Positions 29,838 through 56,531 of a stretch of DNA of 64,000 bases are shown here, in pieces. The DNA lies in assembly GCA_014621425.1 (NCBI GenBank), contig JAANBB010000069.1:62001-126000 (forward strand). The letters run 5' to 3'. The position numbers and the translations under genes were made by a program. Positions within the stretch are counted from its first letter, which is position 1, and each line of letters begins with the position of its first letter. Origin of the DNA: Cylindrodendrum hubeiense. Taxonomy: Eukaryota > Ascomycota > Sordariomycetes > Hypocreales > Nectriaceae. Below the pieces are notes generated by a model. That model saw only the letters and a program-made list of their open reading frames with translations, did not search any database and was not told where the DNA came from.

Positions 29838-29875
29838 GTCGACTGATCCAGTTGGTGTCGACTGATCCAGTTCGT
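29838..29875. repeat. 19-bp unit repeated in tandem twice
   Basis: GTCGACTGATCCAGTT followed by GGT, then the same with CGT, so the two 19-bp units differ at one base. A third partial GTCG follows. A recent local duplication in gene-free DNA. Confidence 0.85.
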
Positions 29876-30537: not shown

Positions 30538-30743
30538 GATCCTATGCCATCTTCAATCTCAAGCTGCTTTCTTACACAGCAATACGGCTTCCAGTCATTC
30601 AAACTCTGAAACTTGCGTAACCATCTTCGTCAAGCCATTCAGCTACTGGGAATATCAAGAAACTACAAACTCCCGTTCACAAAGACAACGATTCTTGCCA
30701 CAATTATCCCCCTAATGCAAATATATCTTCATCCGGCGGCACC

Positions 30744-31742
30744 ATGGTCCTATTTCAGTTGGCACATGGGAGTCAAACAGGAGATCCGCAAATGGTGCGC
30801 GAAAGCGAATCAACGTCGCCATTTGATTACGAGAAGCATAGGGTGTCTCCAAAGAGCTTGAATATATTTTCGAGGGAATCTCTTTCTTCAGACTCGGAGA
30901 GGGAGGAAACAGATTCATGTTTGATCTCAAGTCACTGTGATGAGAAACAAATTTTCAAGCAAATTCATACATTGACGAATTTCGTGGATCAGCTGAAAGA
31001 AGAAGGTCTAGCACACTTTTGGCAATGGATTTCAAGTGAGGAGCGATATCGAATCATGTCACCTCCAGTTGGAACACGACCAAACGCAGAGTGTTTCAAA
31101 GGCTATTCAGAAGTGGAATGTACTACGGATTCGGAAGATATGGAAATGGTTTTTGTCAGGTCAACGAGTATCAAGGCACGGCCTCTATTCGCCTGTCCGT
31201 TTCGGCTTCGAATGCCCCAAAACCATCAGTGCTGTCTACGGCAAGGGGGCTTTTCCGGTTTCCGTGAACTCACGCGCCACCTACTAGCAGCCCACCGCTT
31301 ACCATACTATTGCCCTATATGCCGGCAAATATTCAGCATGGCTAAGGATTGCAATGATCACATACAAATGAGATCGTGCAGTCTCAAGACAGGGTCTGAA
31401 ATCGAAGGTGTATCGAACAATCAGATATGGGAGCTTTCACGGCGTGCTGATCTGGTGCATTCTATGGAAGATCAATGGAGCTTGGTGTGGAATAATGTTT
31501 TCCGTGGAAGCGAGAGGCTACCTCCACCTTATATGGCATCCAATGTTGAGTATTACATCCGCATCCTCCGAAACTACTGGTCGGAAACTGGACAAGACAT
31601 CATGATGGATTTATTAAGATCGAACCACCAACCAGAGAAAGTCGACTGGGGCAGCGAAGAAATCATGGCGCTCAAGGAGGAGATCTTGGCGAAGATGGCG
31701 GATGAACTTATCGAGATCTTCAGAGAAAGCAACAATGAATAA
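30744..31742 (+). CDS. paired C2H2/C2HC zinc-finger protein, subtype T1 (cassette A)
   Basis: An intronless gene of 332 residues with a good start context (CACCATGG). The N-terminal 140 residues are polar, with an acidic Ser-rich patch and FVDQLKEEGLAHFWQWISSE. Finger 1 is C151, C164, H179, H184 (FACPFRLRMPQNHQC then FRELTRHLLAAH). Finger 2 is C190, C193, H206, C212 (YYCPICRQIF then DHIQMRSC). After these comes DQWSLVWNNVFRGSERLPPPY, the W-x3-W-x3-F...P-x3-Y segment shared by all six genes of this family in the window. It is closest to the C-terminal third of the HET fusion at 46947 (EIEGVSxNQI and LPYYCPxC shared) but has no HET domain. This zinc-finger type is abundant and uncharacterised in filamentous ascomycetes. 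DNA or protein binding is likely but unproven. Confidence 0.85.
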   Translation: MVLFQLAHGSQTGDPQMVRESESTSPFDYEKHRVSPKSLNIFSRESLSSDSEREETDSCLISSHCDEKQIFKQIHTLTNFVDQLKEEGLAHFWQWISSEERYRIMSPPVGTRPNAECFKGYSEVECTTDSEDMEMVFVRSTSIKARPLFACPFRLRMPQNHQCCLRQGGFSGFRELTRHLLAAHRLPYYCPICRQIFSMAKDCNDHIQMRSCSLKTGSEIEGVSNNQIWELSRRADLVHSMEDQWSLVWNNVFRGSERLPPPYMASNVEYYIRILRNYWSETGQDIMMDLLRSNHQPEKVDWGSEEIMALKEEILAKMADELIEIFRESNNE

Positions 31743-32218
31743 CAGGACTGAAGAGAATTCAACGAGCTCTTGAAACGATCGTGTGACACTACGTCTCAAT
31801 CCCATCCCTATTCATTCATTTTGACGATCTGGCGATGGTGGCTTTGCATGGTTTCGGAAATATGTCATCGGCATGAGTACTCTACTACTACAATCAATTT
31901 ACATCACAGGTTTGGATTTGAAGGGAGTGCCATTAACCTACAATTCAGAGATGCCTCTCGACGATTATTAATGCCTGGGGGATAGGGGGATTCGATATTT
32001 GGGTGCAAGTGGAGGAAGGTAATTACCGACACTTGGGCAGTTACTGTGATAGGAGTTTGCTTTGATCCTCTGATATAAGATGGGGACATCAGGGACATTA
32101 AGGGGACATAGCGAGACGGCAAAGTGTAAGTAGTGAGACTTTATATCTTGAATAATGAGAATTTATAAACGGAAACGAAATAGCTAAATCAGCGCGAAGG
32201 TGACAGAACACATGACTG
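31743..32218. other. intergenic between convergent zinc-finger genes
   Basis: 476 bp of 3' flanking DNA shared by T1 (+) and T3 (-) of cassette A. No feature was seen. Confidence 0.5.
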
Positions 32219-33740
32219 TCAGCGTCCAAACCTCGGATAACTCATTGGATATCCCTCATTACTCCCATCATCACCCTCAATCCGCTCCCGCTGTTGGAGT
32301 CGGTTCATCGGCAAGCCCCGGGAAGATCGTGCATTGGAAAGCGTCGGGACACTCGACTCAATATTAGGCGCTTCGGTATCATCGCCTTGATAGTAGCTGC
32401 CCTGAGGGGTAGCAGCTGGATAGGGCTCATATAGAGAGCCGTATGGTTGAGCAACATGACCTGGATAGAAACCACCGAGTGGATTAGGTTGCGATATTGT
32501 GCTCGACTGCTGCTGCCAGCCAGATGGGTCGTCATGTGTAGGGTGCGCTGGTGACATAGGCGGCTCTTGCGTTTGCGTCAGTGCTCGTGGTGTCGCATCT
32601 ACCCGAGTCGCCGAGAAGAACAAAAGTTCATCGAGAATACCACGGATAAACTGAGCGGTCTCGATTGGGATGGAACATGTACGCACATAGTCCCAATAAT
32701 TATTCACTCTGTCGGCAAGTTTCTTGTCAAAATCAAATGTGATGAATGGCGAATTGGGGTGCGCATGATTGGGAAACAGGATGTCCCATAAGTGGTACCA
32801 GTTTTTTCTCCAGGTGCCCGGGCGAGTTGTTGGATCATTGATCAGATCCACCTGTCCTTCTGTGATTCCGGGGACCTCGATCTCGTTTGGGATGCAGTTG
32901 CGTGGCTGCATGTGTGCATCCCGCTGGTACCGTCCGTTGGCGTCGTTGGAAAACTCGCGTTTGCAGATTGCGCAGTGTAGAGCCTGTGGCGGGTGTGTTC
33001 TCAGGACATGTTGGCGGACATCGGCAACATGGCGAAGTCGGGCTGAGCCACATTTCCGGTATGTTATACAATCAAACTTGAAAAACGGGCAAGCAAGCTC
33101 TGCTTCTGACGTGCCGGGCTGTGATGTCCTGGAACCACCTCCGCCCGAGGGCTTTTTTCCACGCTCACGGTCTTTGCCCGACTTGTTAGAGCGATGGCGA
33201 CGGCCTTGATCCTCAGCCACGTTTCCCCCTACAAAGGGCTCAATGTCGTTATATCCAACCCCATATTGCTGGCCACCGCTGCCTTGGTGTTGGCTTGGTC
33301 CACGCCCAGTTAGGGTACGGAAGAACGACGGCCCACCCAAGGCGACATAGACGAATAAACAATCGGTCAGAATTTGGGCGAGTTGACATTTCGAAAATTG
33401 ACGCTCCACGGAACTGGGCTGGCCCTGAATCGACGGAGGGTCGCACCCATCTCTGGGGGGAGGTGACCACAAGACTGGTGCTGCGATGAGACCAACAACA
33501 GCCAAAGCCAGCTTGGTACAGTTGCTTGTGGTAGGTTGGCGCTATCCCTTTGTCAGTCGCACAAACCAACAGAGATATCACTAGAATCAATAGGGGTCAT
33601 ACCTGGCCATCGGGAACCCGCCCGACGGTTGGCTTCGTTGGGAAATCGAAACCTCCATCTGTTTTCGTGGCCTCATAAAGGGCCATTGTGTCTGTGACAC
33701 GGGGTTCAAGGCAAATGGGGGTGTGGTACTGCAGCGACAT
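32219..33740 (-). CDS. paired zinc-finger protein, subtype T3 (cassette A)
   Basis: Two exons: 33740-33603 (46 codons from MSLQYHTPICLEP) and 33541-32219. They are separated by a 61-nt intron with GTATGA donor, GACTGAC branch site and GATAG acceptor. The product is about 486 residues. The exon-1 stretch MALYEATKTDGGF and its phase-0 intron match MRPFKASKRPGGF of the T3 gene at 54762. A basic, Gly-rich linker (RRHRSNKSGKDRERGKK) precedes the fingers. Finger 1 starts ACPFFKFD near residue 197. Finger 2 is LHCAICKREF with a later His/Cys pair. Then come EVPGITEGQ and NWYHLWDILFPNHAHPNSPF, again shared with the other T3. The C-terminus is rich in Pro, Gln and Tyr and disordered. A TATA-like TATATA lies about 50 bp before the ATG. 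Function unknown. Confidence 0.82.
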
Positions 33741-34057
33741 CTCGATTCGTGGCTGGATTGTTCAAAGAGAAAGACGGCCACGAACTCTATATATGTCTAT
33801 CTTCTAAAGAAAGAATCCGGGGTCAGTGAAACAGTTGGGGAGCCTAGATAGAAAACCAAAGCGTGAGGGTAAGGTGAGATGGCAACCCAGCATCACCGAG
33901 CACCGATATGCGTACTTTAAGCTCAAGCAAGTACACTCGCGCGCACCAGCCCACACACACGATGGTCGAGCTGCCAGCAGCCATGGGACAAAGTAGACAA
34001 AGTGGCAGAGTCACAGCCCGCTTTGCACCACTTCGAAACGATCTTCATCGGCGAAGC

Positions 34058-34121
34058 GCACGCATTTATGAGCACGCATTTGCGGGCACGCATTTTCGGG
34101 CACGCAGCCTCGCGCACGCGG
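34058..34121. repeat. 14-bp tandem repeat, four units plus a partial
   Basis: Units of 14 bp start at 34058, 34072, 34086 and 34100, with a final partial unit at 34114, all beginning GCACGC; the first three continue ATTT. Each carries the CGCA core that also forms half of the nearby palindromes. Confidence 0.9.
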
Positions 34122-34323
34122 TTGTTGCACTTTGCAACAACAGTCTTGGCGCTTTGGGAAGTGTGCTAAATTGTTATTTTGTCGAATTAACAAGTCCCGC
34201 AAGGCATTCCAGATTGCACAGACGCCACAATGGTCCGGATTCCAACATGCACTCAATGAGATGGACGCTTCGCTTCGCTCCCGACTCTTCCGGAGATACC
34301 GGCGTAGTGCGAGTTGCGTATCA

Positions 34324-34337
34324 TGCGCAGGTGCGTA
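34324..34337. promoter_or_regulatory. TACGCA-N2-TGCGTA palindrome, one mismatch
   Basis: TGCGCAGGTGCGTA, one base off the palindrome consensus, in the divergent T3/S promoter of cassette A about 300 bp before S. Confidence 0.6.
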
Positions 34338-34548
34338 TTGCGTCAATCGAATCATAACGACCTAAACGGGGATAGTAAGTACGGAGATGGTGGCCGACTG
34401 GCCTCAGGAGCAGGCTGTGGATTTTTGGTACGCAGATGTGGAGTGTAGTGATATTTGGGAACACCACCATATCCATCCTCGATGTCTCAATCGACATGTA
34501 CACACGTCAGTGTAGGCAGAATTGAAGCCCATGCGCCGAGCAGGCGTG

Positions 34549-34558
34549 AATATATATC
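34549..34558 (+). promoter_or_regulatory. TATA-like element of S gene A
   Basis: AATATATATC about 85 bp before the S start at 34639. The other S gene has the same kind of element about 83 bp before its start (53965-53976). Confidence 0.55.
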
Positions 34559-34638
34559 GATAGCATCCCTCAAGTGAGTGTGGTTAGCCTCGCTATCAAT
34601 CTTAGAACGCTATTCTACGCAGCCCATCTCCACACATA

Positions 34639-35079
34639 ATGAGCTACAGTATCTCGTCTGTTGAGACCAGTGATGGCAGGTACGCAGATGTGTCCATCCT
34701 TTGCGCAAGCGCAGTTTGAATTCGGCTACTAATCGGGCCCAGCACACCGTCCATTCACAGACCATTGCCGTGTCTCCAAAGATTCCGCCTTACCAGCTGG
34801 CTGCAAGATCCTTACACACCAGTGCAGGACATGTTTGTAAGGTTGCAGCAGCCACAGCAGCCACAGCAGCCACAGCAGCCACAGCAGCCACAGCAACCGC
34901 AGCCGTCAAAGCCACCAAGGTCAACAGAGGTGATATCAAGGAGGGAGTCGGAACAGGAATCAAAGGCAAAAACAATGATGGAAGAGCTTGAGAGACAGTT
35001 TAGTGCGGATACGTCTAAAATTATTACCATGCAGGAGCCTCCCCTAGAATGGGCAGGTTTAGTGTATGAAAGGCGGTAA
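34639..35079 (+). CDS. small uncharacterised protein, S family (cassette A), Gln/Pro repeat
   Basis: Two exons, 34639-34679 and 34743-35079, give 125 residues. Exon 1 encodes MSYSISSVETSDGR and ends after two bases of a codon (phase 2). The intron begins GTACGC, has TACTAAT as branch site and ends CCCAG. The product shares WLQDP-x2-PVQD-x2-VR and a C-terminal E-L-E-R-Q-F-x3-T-S with the S gene at 53521-53887, which has a 41-nt first exon and an intron in the same phase. The middle holds six copies of Q-Q-P from a CAGCAGCCA repeat that the other copy lacks. No membrane segment, signal peptide or known domain is seen. The gene lies between T3 and T2 in both cassettes, which argues for a shared job. 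Confidence 0.8.
34846..34902 (+). repeat. 9-bp coding repeat CAGCAGCCA
   Basis: Five perfect CAGCAGCCA units from 34846 to 34890, one variant, then CAG. It encodes Q-Q-P repeats inside the S gene and is likely length-variable between strains. Confidence 0.95.
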
Positions 35080-35080
35080 T

Positions 35081-35112
35081 GGCTGTGTGGCTGCGTGGCT
35101 GCGTGGCTGCGT
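35081..35112. repeat. 8-bp tandem array GGCTGCGT
   Basis: GGCTGTGT followed by three GGCTGCGT units directly after the S stop codon. Each unit contains a TGCGT half-site. Confidence 0.9.
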
Positions 35113-35399
35113 GGCTCTCAGTTGTAATTTGTACATGGGGAGTAGATACTCGGGAACAATAAAACTGGATGCACCTTGCAATACCCATTTGGTTGACTAA
35201 GCCCCCTACCAAGGCCTGAATCTCCAGAGCTGCTGGGTGAAGTATTCGATGCATTCACCTCTCAGCCACGGAATGCGATGCGACTACACTATGATTCTGC
35301 CCATGAGCGCATTCGAGACAAGATCTGACCACTCCATCTTTATTCACATCAGCTAAAGTTGATGCCATGTAATGTCTCGTATCAGAAGCAAAATGTAAA

Positions 35400-35413
35400 T
35401 ACGCAAGTGCGTA
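35400..35413. promoter_or_regulatory. TACGCA-N2-TGCGTA palindrome, perfect
   Basis: TACGCAAGTGCGTA, a perfect 14-bp palindrome 631 bp before the T2 start. It is the first of a pair in this promoter. Confidence 0.65.
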
Positions 35414-35528
35414 GCGTTGACGCCACGCCATGAGACTTGCATGATACAAAATGCTCAGTCGGGCCACGCTGACGACAACCCTTCTACCCTGCTGCGCCCC
35501 ACTTGGCCATTTTGTTCGGCTTTATTAC

Positions 35529-35542
35529 TACGCAGTTGCGCA
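35529..35542. promoter_or_regulatory. TACGCA-N2-TGCGTA palindrome, one mismatch
   Basis: TACGCAGTTGCGCA, 502 bp before the T2 start, the second of the pair. The T2 promoter of cassette B has the same two-site layout. Confidence 0.6.
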
Positions 35543-36030
35543 GGCCACTAATGTCAAATAGCTGGCTCTCCATTCATCGTCATCGTCATGTTCTAGCCAG
35601 TCGCGCCGCACAACTCTCACCGCCTGATTTCACCAACACCAATGAATCCTGTCAGACAATCAGTTCGAAACACGAATGGGGCCGAATTCAAATCGATGAG
35701 TAACGCGGCCAAATTTCCATCGTTAATCACCGGCTCCACCATTTATCAATAATTTATTTTTACCACATCAATTTCCCGCCATAAATGCAGGTTCTCCTGC
35801 AGCGTCATGAACATGCGAACGCCAACGCAGAGCGCTAGCCATGTCAGGTACAATACCACCTATTCTTCCTTCTATTAGGCTTTCCTTTTATAGCATCAAG
35901 TTCTCACCCTTACTGTGTCTCATTTTATCTCACCAGTACCTACTGCGAAAACCCAAACAATTTGCCTGTTGTTGTCTATACAAGATGCGCCATGCGTTCG
36001 TCTGCTCGCATTTCAACGACAGTTCCTGGC

Positions 36031-37715
36031 ATGGACGAACCTTGCCAACCGACAGATCATGGTGCCCAATTTCATTTTATGAATTGCACCAGTCCTAGCA
36101 CAGATCCACCCACTGAAGGGATCATGCACTTGCCCTTGCGACCTGGGAATACCCGTCAACTCGTAGGGGATTTCAGTGGCACTTGTTCTATAGCAAGCTA
36201 CCCGGAACAGGTGAATTGTGGTCTGCTGAGCTCACAAGGCTCCTTCGCATATGGCTTTGATCCAAGTTGCCCTCCTTTCCAGGAAGAACACGATCAGCAT
36301 CAAGCCAATGCCAGCATGCAAGGCTCAGAATGGAGCAGCGGCTCAAGTTCTTCGCTTTCAGATTCAGTAGGAGGTATGATATAACGTTACTATTTTAATA
36401 TCACCCTTAGAATGACAATTGTTTTGATTTTGACAAAGATCCATTGACTGACGTATAATCTTGGCAGGAATAAGAAAACGCCGCCGTAACTACGAAGGTA
36501 CTATAAACTACCCGTCATTGTTCGAAAATACTGGCCGAGGTGAGCTAGAATGAAATGTTGATAAAACTCTTCTATCAGATTCCTTTCATAATGGCTCTCC
36601 TGTCGAAACCCAAGTTCAAAGCTTAGCAGCTAACCGAAAGGCTTTAGATTTAAGAAGTATTGGCAGTTGGTCTAGCCACACACCTTCATGGCCTCCTCCT
36701 GACGCGAGCACCGAGCTTAAAATTGAAGGCTATGCGTCAGGGCTAATCAGCAATGATGGGAGGCAACGGGACTTAATTAAGCCTGACGCAAGTGAACCAC
36801 GACCTATAAAAAAAGATCCGGAAGACCTCCCCCCCAGCAATCGATTGGGAAATCGATAAGTCGAAGTCTCTGGGACTGAAACCGCTTTCTCAATACTCCC
36901 AAAAACCAACAACATCCACTCTTTTCGCTTGTCCATTCTACAAGCATGATCGCCATAAATACCATGATTGCTTCAGATATGAACTTCGGCGAGTGAAAGA
37001 TGTCAAGCAACACATCATCAGAAAACATATGAAGCCCGAGTATTACTGCGCCCGATGCTTCCTCATTTTCTCAACTGCAGAACAAAGAGATCGTCACACG
37101 CGGGCCCCTCAATGCAAACCGAATGCTATTCCCCAGTTCGATGGCATTTCAGACCAGCAACGAAAATTACTCAACAGCTACATCAGTAGAGGGAAGACAT
37201 TAGAGGAACAGTGGTTTGACACATGGGATTCTGTATTTCCAGGTCTACTCCGGCCTCAGTCATGTTATCTTGGAAACTACGTTGAGGAGATGATGTCGCA
37301 ACTTCGGGATTTCTGGTCCAGGAAACGGACTGAGGTTCTTCCAAGTATACTGGATGACATGCATATCGATATTGATCTCTGTCTATTAGACAAAGTTGTG
37401 GAGAGGATCTTCGATCGATTTGAGTCCGAAGTTCCAAGCTCGGCTGTTGATATAGATACCACATCATCAGGAATAGTGCGTACTTCACCACTGCACATTG
37501 AGCCAACTAAGGTGGAAAACCCCCAGGTTGTACAGACAAACATCTCAGCAGAAACCGGGCAAGACTGGACACAAGATTGGCAACATGTGGAGGACCCTTG
37601 GCCAGTGGATACAGATGAACAGTCCCTTATTGATACCTTGACTGAGGGCTCGGAGTTCGATTTCACATTTTTGGATGAGGGCTTCGTAAATTCCATTGAA
37701 ACCCAAGCCGCTTAA
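36031..37715 (+). CDS. paired zinc-finger protein, subtype T2 (cassette A)
   Basis: The best model has four exons, 36031-36373, 36468-36539, 36579-36791 and 36838-37715, about 501 residues. The ATG at 36031 is chosen because MDEPCQPTDH matches MRCYQPTAH of the T2 gene at 50976. The first intron has the same phase in both genes and is followed by a basic cluster (IRKRRR here, RKRRR there), a likely nuclear signal. Introns 2 and 3 are very short (39 and 46 nt). The third skips runs of seven A and seven C and could instead hide a one-base frameshift. Finger 1 starts FACPFYKHDRHKYHDC near residue 240 with KQHIIRKH; finger 2 is YYCARCFLIF. Then come EEQWFDTWDSVF and RPQSCYLGNYVEEMMSQLRD, very close to the other T2. 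The C-terminus is acidic. Function unknown. Confidence 0.75.
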
Positions 37716-38110
37716 AAAAGTATCATCTCATCACGTGGGATTTCTCACGGTAAATTATCCGTCTCCCCTATGTCACCATTTTATTTTATTTTATTGTATC
37801 ACTTTATTGTAGGATCCTTGTCTCGGTCTTAACATCCTCCATGCTTCATACAATCATTGTAAAGTGAATGAATCTCTCTCGCGATATCGAGCATCATGAT
37901 AGTCATCATATCATTGCGTAGAATCTTGTGACTGAACCATTACTATGTAGTTGCATTTTCAGAGATAAAAGGGAGAACGCGGTGTCCTCGCGGATTTCAT
38001 TCCATAGCAGAGTGGGTAGTGCCTCCTAAGACGACGATAGTCGGAATAGTCTACCCTTTCAAATCTTGTTAGGCCGGCTCTGGATTTGTTTCCTGGATTA
38101 TAACCAAGTC
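37716..38110. other. intergenic between convergent genes
   Basis: The 3' flanks of T2 (+) and the MFS transporter (-). A TTTTATTTTA-rich stretch near 37780-37810 may serve as polyadenylation signal. Nothing else was seen. Confidence 0.45.
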
Positions 38111-40163
38111 CTACTTCAGTGACGTTTCTTTCATAGGGACTGCAATTTCCGCGTCGTCGGTATTGGACTCAGTCGATTCTGACTCAGCTCCGCCATTTCG
38201 ATATTGACTTTGCGTCTTCGTATGCATCCGGTATGCTAGAGCAATGGCGAGTATTGCTTGGAGAAGTAGAAAGGCAGCGGACGTGTAGTTGCCGTTTACC
38301 ACTGCTGGTTGATCGACGATCTTGAACACTGCAAGTGGAACGGTGGCGACGGCCACAGAGCCCCAAACATTGAGTCCTGCGAGAGCGAAAGCCCGTGTTG
38401 CCGGATCACCAGCACTGTGATATGTCAGTCCACGATTTCCTTCCTCTCCAGAACCAGACTTACAGGATCTCGTTTGTCCAGGCCCAGAACATGCAGTTCG
38501 CAGAAGCTCCCCAGCCAGAGTTGTAGTACAGAAACCACCTACCAACCTTGTTCGCTGGAAATACGGGTGTCGTCGCAAGAATCAAAACGATTACAGCATT
38601 GAGAGTGCAGCCAAAGACCATTGGTGGCCAACGTCGACCTTTGAGGAAGGTATCGCCTACAATATCGCTGTTAGCATGCAAATGTATAATGACAAAGGTT
38701 TGATCCATACTTGACCAAGCCAGAAACAGCGTCGTTGTCATGATGATGGCATATAATGGTGTCGTGTAGTTGTTGATTTGTGGGACAGTGAACGATCCGG
38801 GTTCCACTTCGTTCCAGGCCTTGAACCAAAAGGTCAGAGACAGCGAAGGCTGCATTCCAATCATGTCTGTAAAGTGCAACCATACATATCAGCGTATGTT
38901 TCAGAATCACGCGCTTCAAATAACGGCACTTACTGCACACTGAAATAATCCACAATATCCAGACCTCGGGTATGGTGAACCAATGGACTACCTGAGCCTT
39001 CGTGAAAGCGCCCTGTTTTACATCGCCCTCCTTCGGCATGCGCGCCCGCGCCAAAAGGCACTCTTCCTCAGAAAACATGAAGTTGGGTTTAAGCTTGGAA
39101 GGAACCTCGGAAAGTAAAAAGAATTGTGGCAGAAGAATAACGACAGATATTATCCCGTCTAAGAGCATGAGCTAGGACGGTCGTTAGTATAAGGATATGG
39201 TACGGGGATGTTCATACGAACCCATCTCCATCCAGACAAGCCACGGACACCGGTAAGGCTAACGTACGCCGCAGATTGAAGGTATGAGTTTACCATCGGC
39301 CCAATCTGAGAAGCTGTGTTCATCAAAGCTAGCCGCTAACTTGGCGTCAGTAATTGCAGGGAATTATGGTAATCGACTTTGAAACTCACTCTGGCCAATT
39401 CTCCCTTCTGATACCAAGACCCAGCAAGATACATGACTAGTGTGCGGCGAGATTAGCTTCCGTTCACTTATATACATTATTTGCAGTGTCATTCATACTT
39501 CCAGAGTAATGACCACTGTCCTTCATTAGCTTGGTATCCAAGAGTAGTTCATGGTCAACTTACGTCGAGAAGACTCCAGTCAATGCCCTCAACGCGTACA
39601 TCTGGGTCCCGGTCTTCATCCAGGCCTGGCCAAAAGTACTATTACACAAGTTATTGAGAGTTCTCTGAGTTCAACGCCAATTGACGCACCAGATTGTCCA
39701 CCCAAGTTGGATGCCCCTACACAGTTCAGAAATTAGCCCTCTGCGGTTATTCCCATGAAGAGTTGAATCGGACATACGGGATGAAGTGCTTCGGGTTCAT
39801 ACGAACGAGGAGAAGACTTGAAGGCCAAAGGGCAACCATCATACCAACATTGTAGGCTGTGTTTGCATAGTTGAGCTCGTTGCCGTTAAAGCCCAATTCC
39901 TCCTTCATCCCTGACACATACGCCGTTTGTAGGTTGGCTCTGTCGATGAACTTGGAGAAGGTTCCAAGAAGCCCAAACACCACAAGTGTGCAATCAATCT
40001 TGCGCACCAGTCGCCGCTCTTCGGGAGACTTATCCCAGGTGTCCCAGAGATAACTTCGCCATGTTCTGTTCTGAGTGGATACATCGATACCGTTTTCGAC
40101 CCCAGCAGGCTTCACTTCCACACCTTGTTCAGCAATCAATACCGTGCTGTTGGGAGCTCCCAT
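38111..40163 (-). CDS. MFS anion:cation symporter, Dal5/Soa1-like
   Basis: The ATG is at 40163 (MGAPNSTVLIAEQG; the frame is open upstream to 40220). At least eight exons with GTATGT/GTAAGT-type introns run to the stop at 38111. TM1 and its loop carry CTLVVFGLLGTFSKFIDRAN and the typical AYVSGMKEELGFNGNELNYA. Then come SSLLLVRMNPKHFIPG, MYALRALTGVFS, MYLAGSWYQKGELARR and GWRWVLMLLDGII, all marks of the Dal5/Vht1/Liz1 (ACS) family of about 12 TM segments. The second half ends AAFLLLQAILAIALAYRMHT with an acidic tail. Members carry allantoate, biotin, pantothenate, nicotinate or sulfonates. The divergent TauD-type dioxygenase gene makes a sulfonate substrate, as for yeast Soa1, attractive; that is inference. 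Confidence 0.87.
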
Positions 40164-46946: not shown

Positions 46947-49364
46947 ATGAGGCTCTTAGACGTCAACACATTCAAGCTTATCAATTACGGCCAAGCCACA
47001 GACTGGCCTGCTTACGCAGCGGTATCCCACTGTCGAGAGGATGCAGAACTTACTATTGATGAACTGCGAAACCGAGATGCGCAGGATCTAGACGCAGATC
47101 CCGAGAGAGCAACCTTCACATGGATCTTACAGGCATGCTCTGAAGCCCGAGCTTTAGGGATTGGGATGATCTGGGTAGATTCGCTGTGCGTCGATAGATC
47201 GTCGTGTGCAGAGCTGTCTGAGGCCATCAACTCCATGTTTCGAATATACCAAGGCTCACAGATATGTCTTGTGCATCTCAGCGACATTGATGCACGACAG
47301 ACGCCACTTGCAAGTCCAGTGGAACACATTCAGAAAAGCAGGTGGACGAGCCAGGTCTGGATGCTCCAAGAACTTATTGCATCGGAGCATTTGCAGTTTT
47401 ACGACAACCAATGGACACTTATGGGAAGTAAAAGAACACTGCTTCCAATGCTTTCTCGTCTTCTCCACATCGACAGTGCTGTCCTGGACAACTCAAAATG
47501 TCTCTTTGACTTTTCGATCGGGCGGCGAATGTCCTGGGCCTCTCGGCTCTCAGCTATTCGACACGAGGACGTTGCATATTCATTACTAGGGATATTTGGA
47601 GTCAAGATGAATATCATCTACGGCGAAGGTGGAAGGGCATTTATTCGTTTGCAAGATGAAATCTTAAAAGATACATACGACGTTTCGCTGTTTGCCTGGA
47701 CATCCGACGATGATCAAGAGTATCGAGGTCTCTATGGGCACTCTCCCTCCGAATACACCCACTTTGCATCTCAATCGAACCCGATGCCTCTGCGAATCCG
47801 AGGGCAGATGCACATAAGATCCGCTGGAATACTTGTCGATGACGAGTTTGAATTTTGCAGTACAGGGGATGAGATAGTCCTGTGTCTTTTAGGTCTGAGA
47901 TTTCAGGAAGGCAACACTGTGGGATTCGGAATTCATTTGGTAGAGTGGGACAATCGATATGTACGATCATCCTCGTCGCTTCTTATCAATGTGGACGACT
48001 TCCCAAAGCGAAGCGCAAGAAGAATTTGCGTCAGCCGCGACGTGACCCGAAAAGACTCCAGCATTATCGCCACGCAGGTTTCTCCTCAGTTACAACAGCC
48101 AAACATTTGTTTTGGATCTATTACAACAGGTTTGGGAAATAAGACCGATGGGATGGAAACTCCAATGCCGGACAAAAGCGCCTCAACCGCAAACCAGATC
48201 GTTCCGAATTGGACTATGCCCAGCACATATATCATTACACGTGATGCTAGACCTGACAAGGCCACACCCTCTACTTATGGGACTTCAGCTGTATTTCTCC
48301 GTGCGATGTTACGGTTGACAACCTTTCGCAGCAGCAGCAGCAGCAAGGATGGAGATATGTTTGTGCAAGATCAAGGCGCAGTTGAGAAATATCACAACAC
48401 GCAGCCAGAGAATTCAAAACATCATAAGAAGCGTCCAAGAGATATGAGCGAATTGGATGATAGCTCGGAATCGGAGGCAGATATGGAATCCCATGCAAGT
48501 TCGATGGAACACACCCTGGATGAGAACCACCCATTAATGAATTTTGTGGATGAGTTGACGGACCATGGTCTGGCTCTCTTCTCTCAATTAATTTCAAGTC
48601 TTAGCCACGAACGAGATGTAAATACTACACACCCAACGAGAAAAAGACAGAAGGTGAAGGATTTTGAAGAGAAGGCCGATTCTGAGTGTATTCAACACTT
48701 GGAAAATGCGGACAGTGTTGTCAAGAGTCCAAGAAACAAGAACCCGTTATTCGCATGCCCCTTTCAGGCTCGCACACCCGATCAATATAGTTTGTGCCTC
48801 AAGGAAGGTGGATTTTCTAGCTTTCGGGGCCTCTGTCGACATCTCTTAGTATCACACCGCCTACCATACTATTGTCCCGTTTGCGGCCAAACCTTCACCA
48901 TGGCTGGAATTCGCGACGATCACATCAGAAAAAGATCGTGCAGTCCAACAAATGCGCCAGAGATCGAAGGCGTTTCCGACAATCAGATTATTCAACTTTT
49001 TCAGCGAGCTGATTCACTCAAGTCCAAAGAGGAACAATGGTGCTCCGTCTGGCACACTATTTTTCGTGGAAATGAAAGGCCCCCAGTGCCGTATTCCGCA
49101 TCTAAAGTCGAATCATGTATCCGCTCACTCAGGGACTATTGGTCAAAAGATGGACAAGGTGTGATTTGTTCTTTCGTTGAATCAAAAGAGCTACGAGGTG
49201 CCACAGTTCACGTAAGCAAAGAAGAGACGATTGCCTTGAGTCAAATGATTTTAGATCGAATGGTTGATCGACTTGTCAAGCTTCTAATTCCAATCGAAGA
49301 TGGGAAACGTGATGAAGAGGAATTTAGAGACCTTCTGGAAATACTACGGGAGGCGTCACCTTGA
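46947..49364 (+). CDS. HET-domain protein fused to paired zinc finger, subtype T1 (cassette B)
   Basis: An intronless gene of 805 residues from the ATG at 46947 (MRLLDVNTFKL); the frame extends 4 codons upstream only with TTG. Residues 1-260 are a HET domain: AAVSHC, IGMIWVDSLCVDRSSCAELS, AINSMFRIY, WMLQELIASEHLQFYD, RMSWASRLSAIRHEDVAYS and LLGIFGVKMNIIYGEG. Residues 330-600 are a linker with a Ser run and acidic stretches. Residues 604-665 hold the two fingers (FACPFQARTPDQYSLC, FRGLCRHLLVSH, YYCPVCGQTF, DDHIRKRSC), then EQWCSVWHTIFRGNERPPVPY. HET domains trigger incompatibility-type cell death when partners differ. The finger part may be the sensing or DNA/protein-binding module. The zinc-finger half is clearly related to the gene at 30744, which has no HET part. 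Confidence 0.9.
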   Translation: MRLLDVNTFKLINYGQATDWPAYAAVSHCREDAELTIDELRNRDAQDLDADPERATFTWILQACSEARALGIGMIWVDSLCVDRSSCAELSEAINSMFRIYQGSQICLVHLSDIDARQTPLASPVEHIQKSRWTSQVWMLQELIASEHLQFYDNQWTLMGSKRTLLPMLSRLLHIDSAVLDNSKCLFDFSIGRRMSWASRLSAIRHEDVAYSLLGIFGVKMNIIYGEGGRAFIRLQDEILKDTYDVSLFAWTSDDDQEYRGLYGHSPSEYTHFASQSNPMPLRIRGQMHIRSAGILVDDEFEFCSTGDEIVLCLLGLRFQEGNTVGFGIHLVEWDNRYVRSSSSLLINVDDFPKRSARRICVSRDVTRKDSSIIATQVSPQLQQPNICFGSITTGLGNKTDGMETPMPDKSASTANQIVPNWTMPSTYIITRDARPDKATPSTYGTSAVFLRAMLRLTTFRSSSSSKDGDMFVQDQGAVEKYHNTQPENSKHHKKRPRDMSELDDSSESEADMESHASSMEHTLDENHPLMNFVDELTDHGLALFSQLISSLSHERDVNTTHPTRKRQKVKDFEEKADSECIQHLENADSVVKSPRNKNPLFACPFQARTPDQYSLCLKEGGFSSFRGLCRHLLVSHRLPYYCPVCGQTFTMAGIRDDHIRKRSCSPTNAPEIEGVSDNQIIQLFQRADSLKSKEEQWCSVWHTIFRGNERPPVPYSASKVESCIRSLRDYWSKDGQGVICSFVESKELRGATVHVSKEETIALSQMILDRMVDRLVKLLIPIEDGKRDEEEFRDLLEILREASP

Positions 49365-50975
49365 CTTATTTGAGCTTTGATACGCGCAAGCTCAGAGGTA
49401 GGTGTCTGACAACTAGAAAGACGAGTGAAGTTGATTTTATGATAGTTTCACCTAGGCTCTTAAATTCATCTACAGAAGACTTACCTATGTGTCATTGTAA
49501 CAATGCGGACATATAAATCTCGATGTATTTCTTTTTGGATCGTCTCACCAAGAAAATCGAGAATCGTAGCCATGGCGAACGCCATGAATGTTTTGGGGTT
49601 CTAACCCGAAAGAGATCACCACCAAAATTAAGATCTTGCAATATTGTCTCTAATATGTGTTGACAGTTCACGCTGGGATTGGTACTTGATGGTTGCACTG
49701 AGCCGGGAAATGACTCACATGTACAGATGCCGTCACCGGGCATGCGCCTTGTACAGGTGCTCTTATTCGTACAGGTGGATTGTCTGATGTGAATATGACA
49801 TGCTAGTTTCAAGCGAAATGGGATTCTGAAATCACGTCTCACCCGGCCCCAATGACACTGGGAACCTAGCGAGGCTGTTGAGGCCGCCGAGCGTAGTCAT
49901 GATTTCGTTGGCTTGTTACCCAAACTGCCTCTGCGTCGTCTTCTTCCGCGTTGAGCACGGAGTTTACTTCTGCTCCAAAGCCATGGCAATTACTGTGGCT
50001 TCCTTGTATGTTCAGCCGAGGCTGACCTGGTTGGGCGCGAGGATGTGGGTTAATTGAAGTTGTTGAAGCTCTCACAAATAATTGTCAAGCTGTACGACAA
50101 TACAAACAAAGGTGAGCCGCATCCCGATGATAACTGGTCTAGCAGCTAAACAAGAAAGTAAATGGCGATCAGGGGCCGTAATAGCTGCGATAAATAAAGG
50201 CCGGACCAGCCGGCACCTTAGATAGACCATTATCCTGCTCTGTCAACGTTATTAAGACCCTTATTGCTGTGATTGACCGTGACCTCAATTCGGCCGCCTG
50301 TTCATAGATCAATTCTGCTACCCAAAAGCTAGCAAATTTGCGGCTGGCGGGTGTGGTTGGTTTTGCCCAGTGTGCTTTCGTGCACATCTCACCATGAGTA
50401 TTCTAGTAGTTTGATCGATGCGTACGTCAGTAGCAAGATCCAGAAGAGTAGAGAGACATGACTTGGTGCACCTTGAGTGCAAGAGGATAGAACTTCTGTT
50501 GGGAGGCCTATCCTTGGTGGTGGACAGATATTGCTCAAAGTACTGCCCCTAACTAGCAGCGTTTAGATTCCTTGCGATGGAAATAATCGAAACTAGTAGG
50601 ATTTATTGTAAGTACAGTTTTTGTAGAGTGAGATGCAGGGCTACGCATTAATGACGCAGAAGGTCCCACAGTATTCCACAGCTTTCTGTGAGATAGCTTC
50701 AAAACTCACCAGGGGCACAGCTTTGTAGGAGTCAAGCAACCCCGCGGACATATATAAAAGGGCTTACGGATGGACAGTCAACACGAAACAGTTAAAGATT
50801 ATCATAGCTGACCACGCTTTGTGAGTATCCTGCATGGTTGGAGTACGAACTGAGAAAGTATGTATTGCAATTTAATAGAGAGTAAATAAGTGAATAATTA
50901 ATGCGTTGAGGAGAACATTTATATTCGGCCAACGGCCTTGGTGCTGCCACCCTTAAAGGCCATAGACTAGCTCAG
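49365..50975. other. intergenic, 1.6 kb, with an orphan promoter-like site
   Basis: Lies between the HET fusion (+) and T2 of cassette B (-), which converge. A minus-strand frame at 49492-49842 has a Cys-rich stretch (STCTNKSTCTRRMPGDGICT) but no clear gene structure. A strong TATATAAAAG box faces right at about 50752-50761, although no plus-strand gene follows. Confidence 0.45.
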
Positions 50976-52676
50976 TTATACAGAGCCCTCATCGGAAGAA
51001 CTCAACCATAAATTCCATTCCCAGCCACTGGGTAACTCTTCCGTAGCGTCAAACAGATCCTGATCATATAGTGTATCGCAAAAAGGCTCAATATCCTGCC
51101 AATCTTGTTGCAGATCCTGCCCCAATTCTGTTGGATTATTTCTTTGGCTGAATTTCTCCATCATTGCTTTGCCTTCTTCGACTGGTTGTGATGAGGTATT
51201 CTCAATTGCCAAAGGCGTTGTTCTATCCATCTCAATAGATGAATTAGACATCTGAGACTGGAATAGGTTAAAGACCGTTCCCACAACATTATCTAACAAA
51301 CAAGGATCAACCCCATTTTTGTGTGTATCATCCAGCACATTCGGAATGATTGCGTCCCTTTTGAGTTCCCAGAAATCCCTAATTTGTGACATGACCTCCT
51401 CGAGATAGTTACCTAAATAGCAGGATTCGGGCCGGAGCTGATCTTGAAACACTATATCCCAAATTATAAACCACTGATCCTCAGTTGATAGGCCTCGACT
51501 ATTGCTGCGTTTGAGATCCTTTTTTTGCCATTCTGAGATACCACCAACCTGAGACTCTAGCCCCTTTTTGCAATGTGGTAGATGTTGATCTCTTGCTTCG
51601 GCGTTCAAAAACTCCTTAGAGCAACGAGTGCAATAAAACTCGGGATTCATATGTTTTCTATAAATGTGCTGTTTCACATCCTTAACTCGCCGAAGTTCAT
51701 ATTTGAGGCAGTCATGATGCCTATGACGATCTCGCTTGTAGAATGGACAAGAAAGAAGGGTGTGTGTCTTTGCGGTGTTGATTTGAGGCTTCCTCTCCAT
51801 AGGCTGTGACGTGATGAGATTTGGATGACTTTTGGGCGAATCATAACGACTTCTTTTGTTAAGCTTCGATTCATCACTTTCCAACTTGATTAAGGTTGCT
51901 GGGTACAACTTCCTTTTTCTTGAGTCTAATGCACAAGTCGTGAAGCCCAGCTTGGGACTGGCTGCAAGAGCTCCGTTGGTGAAGCCGCGGACTGGACAGT
52001 CGCCGTTGAAATCCAAATCACAAGTCTTCGGATATTGAAACTGGCTTGTAAAAGCAGGGTATCGGTCAGACCAATCCGTTCCAAATATCTCCAGAACTTG
52101 TTGGGAATCTCGTATCACGCCATCGGTCTTCAGAACTGGTACGGGGACATTGGGGGGATCGTCATCGCGGCGTCGTTTGCCTATCCATTTAAAGAGTCCA
52201 TATCAGCTAATGGCTTGAGTCGAGAATAGCTTGCATTGTGTATGAATGAAATACTGGAAAGACGGTATGTCGGGACTTCTGGTGAATGAGCTGCATTGTA
52301 GATATAACTTACGCCCATTGACTGTATGATGACTGTATGGTTCTTGAGGAACTTGAGAGAACTCTGACAGCGGATTAACGCCATTTATAATCGTGTCTTG
52401 GAACTCTAGCAAGCCGCCGTCAACAGATTCCGTGTAGCCTCCAAATAATGGATATGCAGTGTTTGGATCACTTGCGACTAGAGTGGTATTGTCAACGCGT
52501 ATAGAAAATTGCAAGCTATCGATCGCGAATGGATCTTCCAAAGAGGCGTCGCAAGCATTGAGCATCTGTGGCTGGATGGTATTGTTTTCTTTCTGGAAGT
52601 GCTCATCAACGCCATTTCTTGTTATTGGCTCTTGGAAGAATTCCATGGCATGGGCCGTAGGTTGATAACAGCGCAT
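50976..52676 (-). CDS. paired zinc-finger protein, subtype T2 (cassette B)
   Basis: Exons 52676-52313 and 52180-50976 with a 132-nt intron (GTAAGT...GATAG) give 522 residues. The ATG at 52676 (MRCYQPTAH) matches the start of the T2 gene at 36031, and the first intron has the same phase 1. Downstream of the splice comes the basic RKRRR, then a polar linker with a second basic patch (SRKRKLY). Finger 1 begins LSCPFYKRDRHRHHDC near residue 266 with VKQHIYRKH; finger 2 is FYCTRCSKEF with H/C partners. Then come EDQWFIIWDIVF and RPESCYLGNYLEEVMSQIRD, nearly the same as in the other T2. The C-terminus is acidic and ends DEGSV. It is closer to its cassette-A partner than to T1 or T3. Function unknown. 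Confidence 0.85.
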
Positions 52677-53049
52677 TGGTCCGTGGACCTTCGCAGGACA
52701 AGTTGAAGGAATAACAAGGGAATCCGGTGTCTTTTCGGAGAGCGTGACCAGCAGGGTAGAAGAGGTAAGGTTCAGTCTGACCGGACTTTCGTGGTCCACA
52801 CCATCGGGACCGAAGTGTTTAGGCCGGATATATTTGCACTTTCATTCGGAGAAAAAGCATGGTGGATATGAGAGTTAAGGAGAAATTCGGCCCCCAAGAA
52901 TTCTAGCCCTTGTGAATATGCGATGGGCTTGATACCCATGCGGAGAGACACTTGTCTCAATGGACTCATGCTTGCCGCTCATATGACATATCCCGGGCGT
53001 CCTCGCTGAAACGTGGCCATGAAGCGCAACCAACGAGCCGATGTCATTG

Positions 53050-53063
53050 TACGCAGATGCGTA
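53050..53063. promoter_or_regulatory. TACGCA-N2-TGCGTA palindrome, perfect
   Basis: TACGCAGATGCGTA, 374 bp before the T2 start on the minus strand. Confidence 0.65.
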
Positions 53064-53171
53064 GTGGAGGTATCAAAGTCAGCCTGAGTGGCAGCAAGGC
53101 AGTCTAGAAGCGGCGGAGCAGGGTGGAACCGGAGCAATGTCCGCCTCATTTAAGGCAAGGTGACGTCGGGC

Positions 53172-53185
53172 TACGCAGCTGCGTA
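53172..53185. promoter_or_regulatory. TACGCA-N2-TGCGTA palindrome, perfect
   Basis: TACGCAGCTGCGTA, 496 bp before the T2 start. The central GC makes the whole 14-mer self-complementary. Confidence 0.65.
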
Positions 53186-53520
53186 TCTACATAGCCTGTC
53201 GCGTGGAGCCTGCAAGTGCTATGTAGATGGCCAATGTGAAATAAGACGGGATAAATAAAGACAGCAGCCAGTCACTATGCGAAGGAGAAGGTGAGTGGCC
53301 CGGGTTCGAGACATGCAGTGAAGCGATCAATGCTGAGGTGATCTGGGCGAAGCTAAAGAGGCGAGAACACGATCATTTGCCGAGTGATTAATTGCGTGGA
53401 AATAACCAGCGAAGTCAATAAATACGGTAGTTCTTTTTTCCACGCGACATATAAGACACGCGCAGATTGAGTCCGGAGCTATTATGTACAAGCGAAGGGC
53501 TGGCCACTATTCTTGGCATT

Positions 53521-53887
53521 CTAAGAGCTGCATGCAGCGTTGGACGTTTTTGTTGCAAATCGCTTTTCAAATTCTGCGACGGTTGCTCCGGCTTCCAACT
53601 TCCGCTGCTTCCGTTCTGATCTCCGTTGCGGAGTGCCGCCTTGTGATCCGGATGGCTGTTGCCTCACCAGCCTGTCTTGGACTGGCGGGGAAGGATCTTG
53701 CAGCCAATATTCTAAGCGGCCATTTTGAATGCGCGGTGAGGAGCTGTTGAGAGACGGCGGACCAACGGTCAGCATCGCATCGGAATTTACATTTCTCATT
53801 GTGCAGGTCCGGGGCGAAGCAGCCCCGAGGCTGAGTGCTTACGTACCTATAGCCTCCCGTGAGAGCTGACGCTGCACTGTGGCTCAT
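53521..53887 (-). CDS. small uncharacterised protein, S family (cassette B)
   Basis: Exons 53887-53847 and 53743-53521 give 87 residues. Exon 1 encodes MSHSAASALTGGYR and is 41 nt long, ending in the same phase as its partner at 34639. The intron begins GTACGT and ends TCAACAG. Exon 2 carries YWLQDPSPPVQDRLVRQQP, then a Gln/Arg-rich stretch without the Q-Q-P repeat, and ends in EFEKRF-x3-TS. No domain, signal peptide or membrane segment is known. The conserved W-L-Q-D-P-x2-P-V-Q-D core and the kept exon layout show that it is a real gene rather than a chance frame, and the adjoining palindromes match those of the other copy. Confidence 0.78.
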
Positions 53888-53964
53888 GTTTGCAAGATAG
53901 GAGCAGTGATGATGACTGTTCAGCTTGTTACGTGACTTGGGAGGCAATAATGGGATTGCAACGT

Positions 53965-53976
53965 CAATATATATTG
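53965..53976 (-). promoter_or_regulatory. TATA-like element of S gene B
   Basis: CAATATATATTG, itself palindromic, about 83 bp before the S start at 53887. The position matches the element before S gene A. Confidence 0.55.
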
Positions 53977-54079
53977 TGCTGGTAGTCGTGTTGAGATCCA
54001 GCTGTACACCGTTGCGTACTCATCCCAAGAGAAAATGTGAAAGTTGGCACACCTCGTTGTGTGAGACAACCATGTTTAC

Positions 54080-54093
54080 TACGCACCTGCGTG
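54080..54093. promoter_or_regulatory. TACGCA-N2-TGCGTA palindrome, one mismatch
   Basis: TACGCACCTGCGTG, 193 bp before the S start and 670 bp before the T3 start. Confidence 0.6.
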
Positions 54094-54761
54094 GTGATGG
54101 CTCCGAGTTGTCAATGCGAATGGCCTCGTGCTGTTGCTGGGTGCGCGACTGCGTAGCAATTTGCCAGGGTACGGAGATTGATCAAAGACCACATCGCCTC
54201 CGCCACCATGGGTTCAATCGACATGCGAGGAAATGTGGAAAGGCTCATTAATAAATAATAGCACTTTCAATCCGCCGTGCTGCAGAGCCGACTGTAGGGG
54301 CAGGTTGACCGAGCAGCCTGGAGAGAGCCTTGCAAGGCCTCCACCGTATTTTCACAACTCGAGGCTCAGAGAGCCTTAATTCACAAATCAGGTTGAAGCC
54401 TAGGGCGCCCACGGGTGTCTGTGCGACGCTTAACACTGGGTGCGCGGCGGCGTTGTTCGCCACCTGCGAAGCCGCGCCGACCAAACACCAAAATGCTATA
54501 TCCACTTAATCAAAAGGGCTGTGGCGTAGCTGTGTTGGCTAAGTGTCGCTCACCATTCAAACATCTGGGCAATGATCGGATGTCCTGCATCTCTACTTCA
54601 ATACCTACACCACGTTGGTTCTTGGTTCTTCTATTTTGATGCTTCATCATCCCGACTGGGTTGGGTTCTGCTTTATTCGCCACGGTGCTGTAGGTCCAGA
54701 TTCAACCGTAATAACACATGGGAGTTCATCGCCTGGTACTCGGAGCCGTGCAACAACAGAT

Positions 54762-56531
54762 ATGAGACCTTTCAAAGCCTCGAAACGCCCAGGCGGCTTC
54801 ACCAGACCTGCAACAAAGGAAAAGCTAGCTACCACGTCTCAGGTACGGCATTGTCCATTGTTGCTCAAGCTCCATTTACTGTGTTTGGGACTGACCAAAC
54901 AATAGAGTGAACCTTCGACTAGCCGCCGTAGGATCAAAAAAGCCTTCGCTTCACTTACTAGTCGGCTGCATTTCCGTTCCCGCTCCCGTACCCGTAACGC
55001 CCGTCATCACTTTGGCCACCACGGCGATCGCGGAGATCAACGCCACCCGGAATCTCACCCAGAATCCCAGAGAGGTCCCGGTGCATTCTTGAAACGCCAA
55101 CTGACACCTCGATTCACTCTCAATGGTATAGATTTCAGCATCACCTCTCGCAAAGACAGTGCCCGAAAACAAGGCCTTAATAAGCCTCAAATTACCTTGA
55201 CAGTCCGCTGTGCTCTGCCTGGCGAACCCGCAGGACAAGGTCCCCAGGGCTATTCTGAGGGTGGCGGTGGCGGTCAGGGATCCAACCATGAGAGTCCATA
55301 TAATCCTACCCGGTTGATGGGGGCGCGGCCCAACCTGGCAAAAGGGAGAGGCCGCAAGAGGAAGCCGCCAGGAGACGAGCCGCCAAACAGAGATGGCTTC
55401 AAGAAACCGAAGTTTGGTAAGCCCTACAAAAAGCCCCGGGTAGCATGCCCTTTTTACAAGCACGATCGCAAGGCGCACCCAAAATGTCGGAACGCCGAGC
55501 TTCGCACCGTTGCCGACGTCCGACGGCATATTATGAGGGCACCAGCACACCGGCAGCCTACGCACTGCCCAATCTGCAAATGTATCTTCGAGGGCCGCGA
55601 CGACGCCGAACTGCGTCACCGGCTCCATGAGCACATCCGACAACAAGAAAATCCTTGCGTGGAGAGGCATGTCATAGTTCCCGGAGTCACGGAGGACCAG
55701 AAGAAGAAACTAGAAGACAGTAGAAACCGCGCAGGCTCCCTGACGGAAAACTGGTATGAGGTCTGGGAAATCTTGTTCCCCACCGTCCCTCGCCCCAATT
55801 CACCCTACCATACGGGAACCGAAGTTCAAGAGATGTTTGATGAACTCATGGAAAAGTTTCGGGAGTCCGAGCTTGGGCAACAGGTCGCAGCAAAGAACCC
55901 TGCGCATACGGAGCTGGTTCTCTCATCTTTGGATACTTTCATGACGACTTCTGAGACGAGCTCCGCAGGTGTCCCGCTGATCGATGAACCTGCCCCAGCA
56001 CCTGAGGGGCAAAGCCCAATAAATCTAGAGCCCGCACCAGGGAATAAGACCGGGCCACCTATAACAACGATACCTGTGACAGCAACACCTACAACGATAC
56101 AGTCTACAACAATTCAACCTTCCACAATACCTTTAATATCACCTACCGAGCACATGCCGTCGGCGATACGAAGTGACGTCACAGTTTCGGGTACCTACCG
56201 CCCGAGTTCGACAAGTTCAATCCTGGAGGGGGAACATCATTTCCTCAGAGGGTCATTTGAAAGGCATCCGCCAGCACAATTGTATCCCACAAATTCTCCC
56301 TACCAAGCGATTTTTCCACAAGATTATTCCACTCCCGGTTATCTTTCACAGAACACTACTGGAGAGCCCCATGAGTATTCCTATCTTCTGGATGTTGGGA
56401 TTGATGATCCCATGTACAGTCTCCAGAATTTCTTTCCACTTAGCGACCCTCCGGAATTAAACCTGACGTACCTGAAGACGGCCACCCCGCCTCCTCCAGG
56501 ACCATCAACCAGAGCACCACCAGTGCCATAA
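54762..56531 (+). CDS. paired zinc-finger protein, subtype T3 (cassette B)
   Basis: Exons 54762-54842 and 54906-56531, split by a 63-nt intron (GTACGG, branch GACTGACC, acceptor AATAG), give 568 residues. Exon 1 (MRPFKASKRPGGFTRP) and its phase-0 intron match the T3 gene at 32219. The frame is also open upstream to an ATG at 54639, so a longer start is possible. A very basic region with RLHFRSRSRTRNARHH and GRGRKRKPP precedes finger 1 (VACPFYKHDRKAHPKC near residue 206) and finger 2 (HCPICKCIF). Then come VPGVTEDQ, ENWYEVWEILFPTVPRPNSPY and a Thr/Pro-rich disordered tail of over 200 residues with repeated T-T-I-Q-P-like phrases. The basic N-terminus suggests nuclear location. Function unknown. 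Confidence 0.83.

Follow-up and report, generated by a model that had tools for sequence, protein, structure and literature searches.

Known Systems and the Locus

Autoregulated fungal zinc-finger transcription factors are characterized by a clustered zinc-finger gene and by a palindromic site repeated upstream of the genes of the cluster. Fungal cell-death clusters (nwd2/het-S, gasdermin-protease pairs, and PP-motif clusters) are small linked sets whose number varies per species, described in the accessible portions of the sources as sets of two or three genes based on NLR, HeLo, gasdermin, or protease domains (PMC10197012, PMC12881547). HET domains are reported in the same literature to be sufficient to induce cell death and to be remote relatives of TIR (PMC10197012). 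At het-B of Podospora, as far as the available part of the source describes it, a HET gene acts with a non-HET gene at one locus, the HET protein having a lectin fold and its partner being PII-like (PMC10890737). Here, a four-gene cassette of Cylindrodendrum hubeiense is described, consisting of three zinc-finger genes (T1, T2, and T3) and a small gene (S), and present as cassettes A and B in the 64,000-nucleotide stretch analyzed, C656:62001-126000 (the window), of a fungal genome of 47.5 Mb in 798 contigs.

The cassette resembles the clusters of fungal regulated cell death, as these are presented in the accessible text, in that a cell-death or immune protein stands beside linked partner genes. 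Unlike in those clusters, however, the HET protein is fused to the zinc-finger domain of its neighbors, and the set includes a small S gene along with a shared palindromic site; "zinc finger" has 0 occurrences in the main text of PMC10197012 and PMC12881547. The pairing of a HET gene with non-HET partners at one locus is shared with het-B, the term again having 0 occurrences in PMC10890737. With autoregulated cluster zinc-finger factors the cassette has in common the clustered zinc-finger gene and the repeated palindrome, but its finger, of the type C-x12-C-x13-H-x4-H, lies below Pfam cut-offs, and the domain is also fused to HET in T1. Neither a HET-zinc-finger cassette nor the palindromic site was found in a literature search covering few subscription papers. 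The two- and three-gene fungal cell-death clusters are known from the portions of the sources seen, and the four-gene HET-zinc-finger cassette with its own site is new to the literature searched. An initial annotation, made from the letters of the window, had proposed an undescribed functional module; the proposal is plausible in that no such cassette was found, while the function itself is something that we infer.

Gene Content and Layout of the Cassettes

The four genes almost certainly form a real module. Open reading frames (ORFs) and reading of the sequence, by which the start codons of the cassette genes were chosen, confirmed all eight genes at the places where the initial annotation had put them (Table 1). 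From their coordinates and strands, the layouts are T1(+) T3(-) S(+) T2(+) in A and T1(+) T2(-) S(-) T3(+) in B, so it is also true that B carries the whole T3-S-T2 block of A in inverted form. T2 and T3 carry the same zinc-finger domain within otherwise low-complexity proteins.

A genome search with the T2b finger domain gave 37 matches (all 40 candidates scored), 15 of them in five three-gene clusters that keep one orientation pattern and 22 elsewhere; searches with the T1b and T3b domains (33 and 32 matches) revealed no additional three-gene cluster. One of the further clusters, cassette C on contig C371, has the layout T1(+) T2(-) S(-) T3(+) of B. The gene order on C323 resembles layout A, and C379 reads, in reverse, T1-like, T(-), T2-like(+). 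Both orientations of the inner block thus recur, A-like in C323 and B-like in C371. The S gene lies between T2 and T3 in A and B, as first annotated, and likewise in C (three of three sure S genes), always in the orientation of T2 and directed away from T3. With respect to the refuting possibility that T2, S, and T3 are generally unlinked, 15 of 37 T matches in this genome are clustered and every sure S stands between T2 and T3; 22 matches lie elsewhere. Linkage of the T genes was assessed in this one genome, and in two foreign genera, for T1 and T2, via shared contig size only. In this genome, the linkage of an effector to its partners that marks fungal cell-death gene clusters is found in A, B, and C, and also in C323 and C379, there without a sure S.

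Sa and Sb share an MS[YH]S start, a first exon of about 14 codons, a phase-2 intron, and a second exon with WLQDP..PVQD, as judged by reading and alignment, and are on this basis a true pair. Besides B itself, an Sb query of the genome matched C (E 1.5e-9), A (E 0.02), and C323 (E 1.05), these four being all the candidates, whereas an Sc query matched only Sb and itself, with neither Sa nor the C323 candidate recovered. A profile of the three S proteins, run against a six-source frame set, gave the C323 candidate, which lies in the expected slot, an E value of 0.0066; it is regarded as a borderline S by sequence. The same profile found no S in C379.

Subtype Relationships and Relatives in Other Species

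A maximum-likelihood tree was built from 47 finger domains, comprising 15 cassette members, 16 others from the same genome, and 16 foreign proteins. It covers 16 of the 22 non-cassette T matches, with C574, C46, C246, C326, C568, and C29 omitted as short or weak and an extra C371 piece excluded by the domain filter. The A, B, and C copies group by subtype: T1 with support of 100/99, T2 together with 13 foreign proteins with 98/88, and T3 together with a solo gene on C13 with 100/93. Long branches were flagged for T3a, T1e, the third C379 gene, C3y, and C112. Domain identities between A and B are 52% for T1, 60% for T2, and 33% for T3 (48-53%, 58-60%, and 33-40%, respectively, over A, B, and C), compared with 18-32% between subtypes. 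By these comparisons the A-B pair of T3 barely exceeds the between-subtype level, and the T3 group is the weakest by identity, resting mainly on the tree. The pairing of A and B copies by subtype was thus borne out by clades and identities, and a failure to pair, which was looked for, was not found in the tree.

The T1-like genes of C323, C379, and C3 join T1 (98/92), and the T2-like pair of C323 and C379 (99/95) is sister to the T2 group with weaker support (92/72). The third gene of both loci groups with C556 (93/83), not with T3, and is equivalent to T3 by position only. The subtype tree and the clusters recurring in this genome support an old duplication whose genes were held together.

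Sixteen foreign proteins matched T2 at E ≤ 0.001: seven from Ilyonectria, Dactylonectria, and Neonectria, two from Xylariomycetidae sp. and Nemania, and seven without a name. At E ≤ 1e-8, the finger part of T1 matched three proteins, every one a HET protein 804-825 amino acids long. In Ilyonectria destructans, the T1 (P0018) and T2 (P0001) relatives are both on a contig of 2,551,192 bases, and in Dactylonectria estremocensis those of T1 (P0019) and T2 (P0004) are both on one of 744,783 bases; from the equal sizes they are taken to share a contig in each genus. In the tree, the three cassette copies of T2 (A, B, and C) are scattered among the foreign T2 proteins, on inner branches of weak support, and because they lie apart in this way the duplications are probably older than the genera compared.

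A Shared Palindromic Site

The strongest functional clue, missed by the initial annotation, is a palindromic site shared by A, B, and C, TACGCANNTGCGTA (TACGCA-NN-TGCGTA), first seen by reading the intergenic DNA. At ≤2 mismatches, it occurs 13 times in the window against 1.6 expected, with none of 100 shuffles as high, and 10 of these 13 sites fall in the T3a-T2a and T2b-T3b intervals. Exact copies number six in 47.5 Mb (control, 0): one in A, two in B, one in C, one in C29, and one in C19, so that four of the six are in inner intergenic DNA of the three cassettes. Each inner block holds five sites (≤2 mismatches) in about 2 kb, where 300 shuffles per block averaged 0.12, 0.07, and 0.07 sites and reached at most 2, 1, and 2 for A, B, and C, respectively. 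Outside the inner blocks, there are none in 30.9 kb of C371 and three in 59.8 kb of the window. At other loci (91 kb), 2, 11, and 14 sites were counted at ≤0, 1, and 2 mismatches, an unfair control since many of those loci were chosen for having a site.

The positions of the sites are also alike. Two stand upstream of the T2 start, at 488 and 617 base pairs (bp) in A, 373 and 495 bp in B, and 464 and 563 bp in C; others stand upstream of the S start, in the region common with the divergent T3, at 196 and 301 bp in A, 117, 192, and 254 bp in B, and 144, 218, and 319 bp in C. Comparison of the inner blocks by blastn (E ≤ 0.01) gave no alignment of A with C; A and B aligned over just 57 bp and B and C over just 93 bp, in each case within the coding exon of S, and the sites thus stand in otherwise unalignable DNA. 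It is likely that the palindrome, as a predicted binding site, co-regulates the inner unit T2-S-T3.

HET and Zinc-Finger Domains

Against the curated PF06985 cut-off of 22.5 bits, the HET domain scores 44.7 bits in T1b, 48.2 bits in T1c (C371:9674-10117; a shortened piece of T1c scored 17.6), and a marginal 22.8 bits in T1d of C323. The T1 relatives P0018 and P0019 score 51.9 and 41.2 bits, respectively. Both T1d and T1e of C379 align along the HET part despite marginal or low scores. The HET fusion noted in the initial annotation accordingly holds, within the window, for T1b of cassette B and not for T1a. The NACHT or NB-ARC domain and repeats of fungal NLRs were not found, Pfam at E ≤ 1 giving only HET and weak zinc-binding matches in T1b and P0018.

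For the finger part, C2H2 models remain below cut-off (PF13894, 16.6 vs 27 in T1b; PF12171, 16.2 vs 22.6 in T2b), and the matches to DNA-binding fingers are weak. However, C152, C165, H179, H184, C191, C194, H207, and C211 are invariant in all 18 aligned sequences (T2b, the T2a piece, and P0001-P0016), and these predicted Cys and His ligands follow a finger-like order, as in C2H2 zinc-finger proteins. For most of the T2 core (about residues 147-320), the structural model has good confidence; the flanks are disordered, and the acidic, aromatic-bearing C-terminus would resemble activation regions. The helix residues of the T2 finger are identical in 16 of 16 T2-clade proteins (three own, 13 foreign), while those of T1 and T3 vary.

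Table 1. Features of the cassettes and related loci; positions without a contig name are those of the window
Feature	Position	Strand	Basis
T1a, zinc-finger protein without HET, cassette A	30744..31742	+	ORF; T1 clade
T3a, zinc-finger protein, short 5' exon and main exon, cassette A	32219..33740	-	ORF; T3 clade
Palindrome, 1 mismatch, between T3a and Sa	34324..34337	.	site search
Palindrome, 2 mismatches, between T3a and Sa	34429..34442	.	site search
Sa, small protein (MSYS..., phase-2 intron, WLQDP motif), cassette A	34639..35079	+	alignment, reading
Palindrome-like, 2 mismatches, at donor of Sa intron 1	34681..34694	.	site search
Palindrome, exact, upstream of T2a	35400..35413	.	site search
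Palindrome, 1 mismatch, upstream of T2a	35529..35542	.	site search
T2a, zinc-finger protein, acidic C-terminus, frame broken near 36810, cassette A	36031..37715	+	ORF; tree
T1b, N-terminal HET fused to T zinc-finger domain, cassette B	46947..49364	+	PF06985; T1 clade
T2b, zinc-finger protein, cassette B	50976..52676	-	ORF; tree
Palindrome, exact, upstream of T2b	53050..53063	.	site search
Palindrome, exact, upstream of T2b	53172..53185	.	site search
Sb, small protein, cassette B	53521..53887	-	searches, alignment
Palindrome, 2 mismatches, between Sb and T3b	54005..54018	.	site search
Palindrome, 1 mismatch, between Sb and T3b	54080..54093	.	site search
Palindrome, 2 mismatches, between Sb and T3b	54142..54155	.	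site search
T3b, zinc-finger protein, cassette B	54762..56531	+	ORF; tree
T1c, cassette C, main frame	C371:9530-12421	+	
T2c, cassette C, main frame	C371:15867-17087	-	
Sc, cassette C, main frame	C371:18432-18737	-	
T3c, cassette C, main frame	C371:19901-21241	+	
T1-like (T1d)	C323:168025-170370	+	
T (third gene)	C323:170991-173177	-	
S candidate	C323:173526-173957	+	E 0.0066, borderline
T2-like	C323:174950-176542	+	

Other Observations

The frame break in T2a, where frames 36554-36859 and 36810-37715 overlap at an A-run, points to gene decay or to an error in the assembly. Within Sa, a 9-bp tandem repeat, CAGCAGCCA (34846-34903), encodes a QPQ-rich stretch absent from Sb and Sc. On C371, a 452-amino-acid frame lies between T1c and T2c (13147-14502, minus strand), and a further T3-like piece with three stops, apparently a relic, precedes T1c (6926-7444). 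HET matches genome-wide number at least 150 (191 candidates, 150 scored), including one immediately to the left of the window, at C656:60754-61074. On C379, a 22-bp tandem array with dyad symmetry (CTACACCATTGTGYAG) lies between two T genes (38700-38809) and resembles the palindrome shared by A, B, and C, differing from it by a symmetric G-to-A substitution. The exact site on C19 stands just before a frame that reads, in our own reading, like a protein kinase.

Two other loci were considered as cassettes and rejected. C13, which has the nearest domain to that of T3b, shows another architecture within 256501-264000, with no S at E < 0.9 and no site at ≤2 mismatches; its 853-amino-acid frame (259530-262088) combines a T3b-like finger domain (53% identity) with apparent other zinc-finger segments, suggestive of T-domain shuffling. 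C3 has a T1-like frame without HET (by reading) and another T but no S and no CGCANNTGCG, and is at most a remnant.

Functional Interpretation

We assign a probability of about 0.5 to the explanation preferred here, that of an inherited module in which an autoregulated T2-S-T3 unit stands beside a HET effector, T1. T1-(T2-S-T3) would be a multi-gene module inherited in Nectriaceae-type fungi, with three close and two divergent copies in this genome. T1 would be a HET effector whose C-terminus is the zinc-finger domain of the family, a role proposed because HET domains are reported to induce cell death. T2, S, and T3 would be a co-regulated inner unit, with a dimeric regulator binding the palindrome upstream of T2 and between S and T3. 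The likeliest regulator would be T2 itself, possibly with T3, forming an autoregulated switch, which fits the repetition of palindromes beside T2, S, and T3; T2 is favored because its helix residues are constant across its clade while those of T1 and T3 vary. The chance that T2, by its predicted binding, regulates the inner unit is about even. If the switch were disturbed, for example when cell fusion brings in a partner that does not match or when an invader interferes, the T1 effector would be released, and S may be the partner that sets the switch. The initial annotation had suggested allorecognition or programmed cell death, its whole basis being the HET domain; such a role is possible but somewhat short of an even bet. 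More speculative still, and rather doubtful, is an immune cassette with its own switch, in which T2 (with T3) on the palindromic operator would set T2 and S levels, T1 would be checked by the same proteins or site, mixed cassette versions or an invader would lead to cell death, and operator and finger would have changed together between A/B/C and C323/C379.

Several observations weigh against the preferred explanation. By Pfam, HET was not found in T1a, nor was a remnant found upstream in 27001-30743, and the T1e domain (10.8 bits) is below cut-off; together with the broken T2a frame, these indicate that not every copy need work, and cassette A, with both a HET-less T1a and the break, may be losing function. 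The helix residues R, D, and Q at -1, 3, and 6 do not single out T2, because unlinked family members (C168, C488, C634, C445, and C556x) have them too. Under the Zif268 code, such a helix would suggest ACG, which lies within the half-site TACGCA; this prediction was set aside as a lead only, since the T2-like proteins of C323 and C379 share R, D, and Q, as do the unlinked relatives, yet these two loci have other dyads. At ≤1 mismatch, the palindrome shows no genome-wide enrichment (61 vs 68 in the control), so that single degenerate sites carry no meaning, and the argument is carried by exact sites and clustering. The starts of T1a, T1b, and T1c have no site at ≤2 mismatches within 3 kb, and none occurs in the fetched stretches of C323 and C379. 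These hold CACANNTGTG three times upstream of the T2-like gene and TRCRCNNNNGYGYA six times, five in one 22-bp tandem array (C379), with none of 300 shuffles as high in either case, but the patterns were picked after reading the sequence, with six patterns tried per block, and are leads only. Of the exact sites outside cassettes, the one on C29 has the upstream end of a frame (49788-51059, minus strand) at a distance of 184 bp, and the T-like finger pieces adjoining this frame (49559-51243) are weak (best E 5.3e-4; E 0.0071 with a stop); around the one on C19, 40001-58000 contains no match to T or S.

The C19 site, together with the helix residues not unique to the cassette and the E-box core CANNTG held by the palindrome, would also suit a different explanation, in which the module is real and co-regulated but an unlinked regulator (e.g., of bHLH type) reads the palindrome and the T proteins are partners or sensors of T1. 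An E-box alone was rejected as the signal, however, as none of the five blocks is enriched in CANNTG, and an unlinked regulator with many other targets would not be expected to have so large a share of its exact sites in the cassettes (four of six, with one more close to a weak T-like match). This explanation is accordingly considered unlikely, though the most serious of the alternatives.

Ordinary gene-family expansion, in which a zinc-finger block was copied and copies lie together by chance and without joint function, is improbable. The number of T and HET matches outside the five clusters and across the genome, the partly decayed look of cassette A, and the remnant-like C3 are what it would lead one to expect, but even the most conserved domain is just 33-60% identical within subtypes, a mark of long divergence across which order, relative orientation, S, its intron phase, and the palindromes have persisted in three copies, and T1 and T2 relatives lie on equal-sized contigs in two other genera. 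The occurrence of the inner block in both orientations (A and C323 vs B and C) might instead make the palindromes recombination or inversion sites that flip the block, with no regulatory part. Because the palindromes surround S within the block, recombination between them would reverse S with respect to its neighbors T2 and T3, yet the S orientation is constant in the three sure cassettes, and this alternative is very improbable.

Implications

Few genes of moulds are as abundant, or as poorly understood, as those with a HET domain. The cassette provides a defined four-gene unit, in several copies and with a rare, directly testable DNA site, and likely partners of a HET protein can be named from gene order. 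If T2 does bind the palindrome, no earlier example of a HET cassette carrying its own transcriptional switch would be known from the literature searched.

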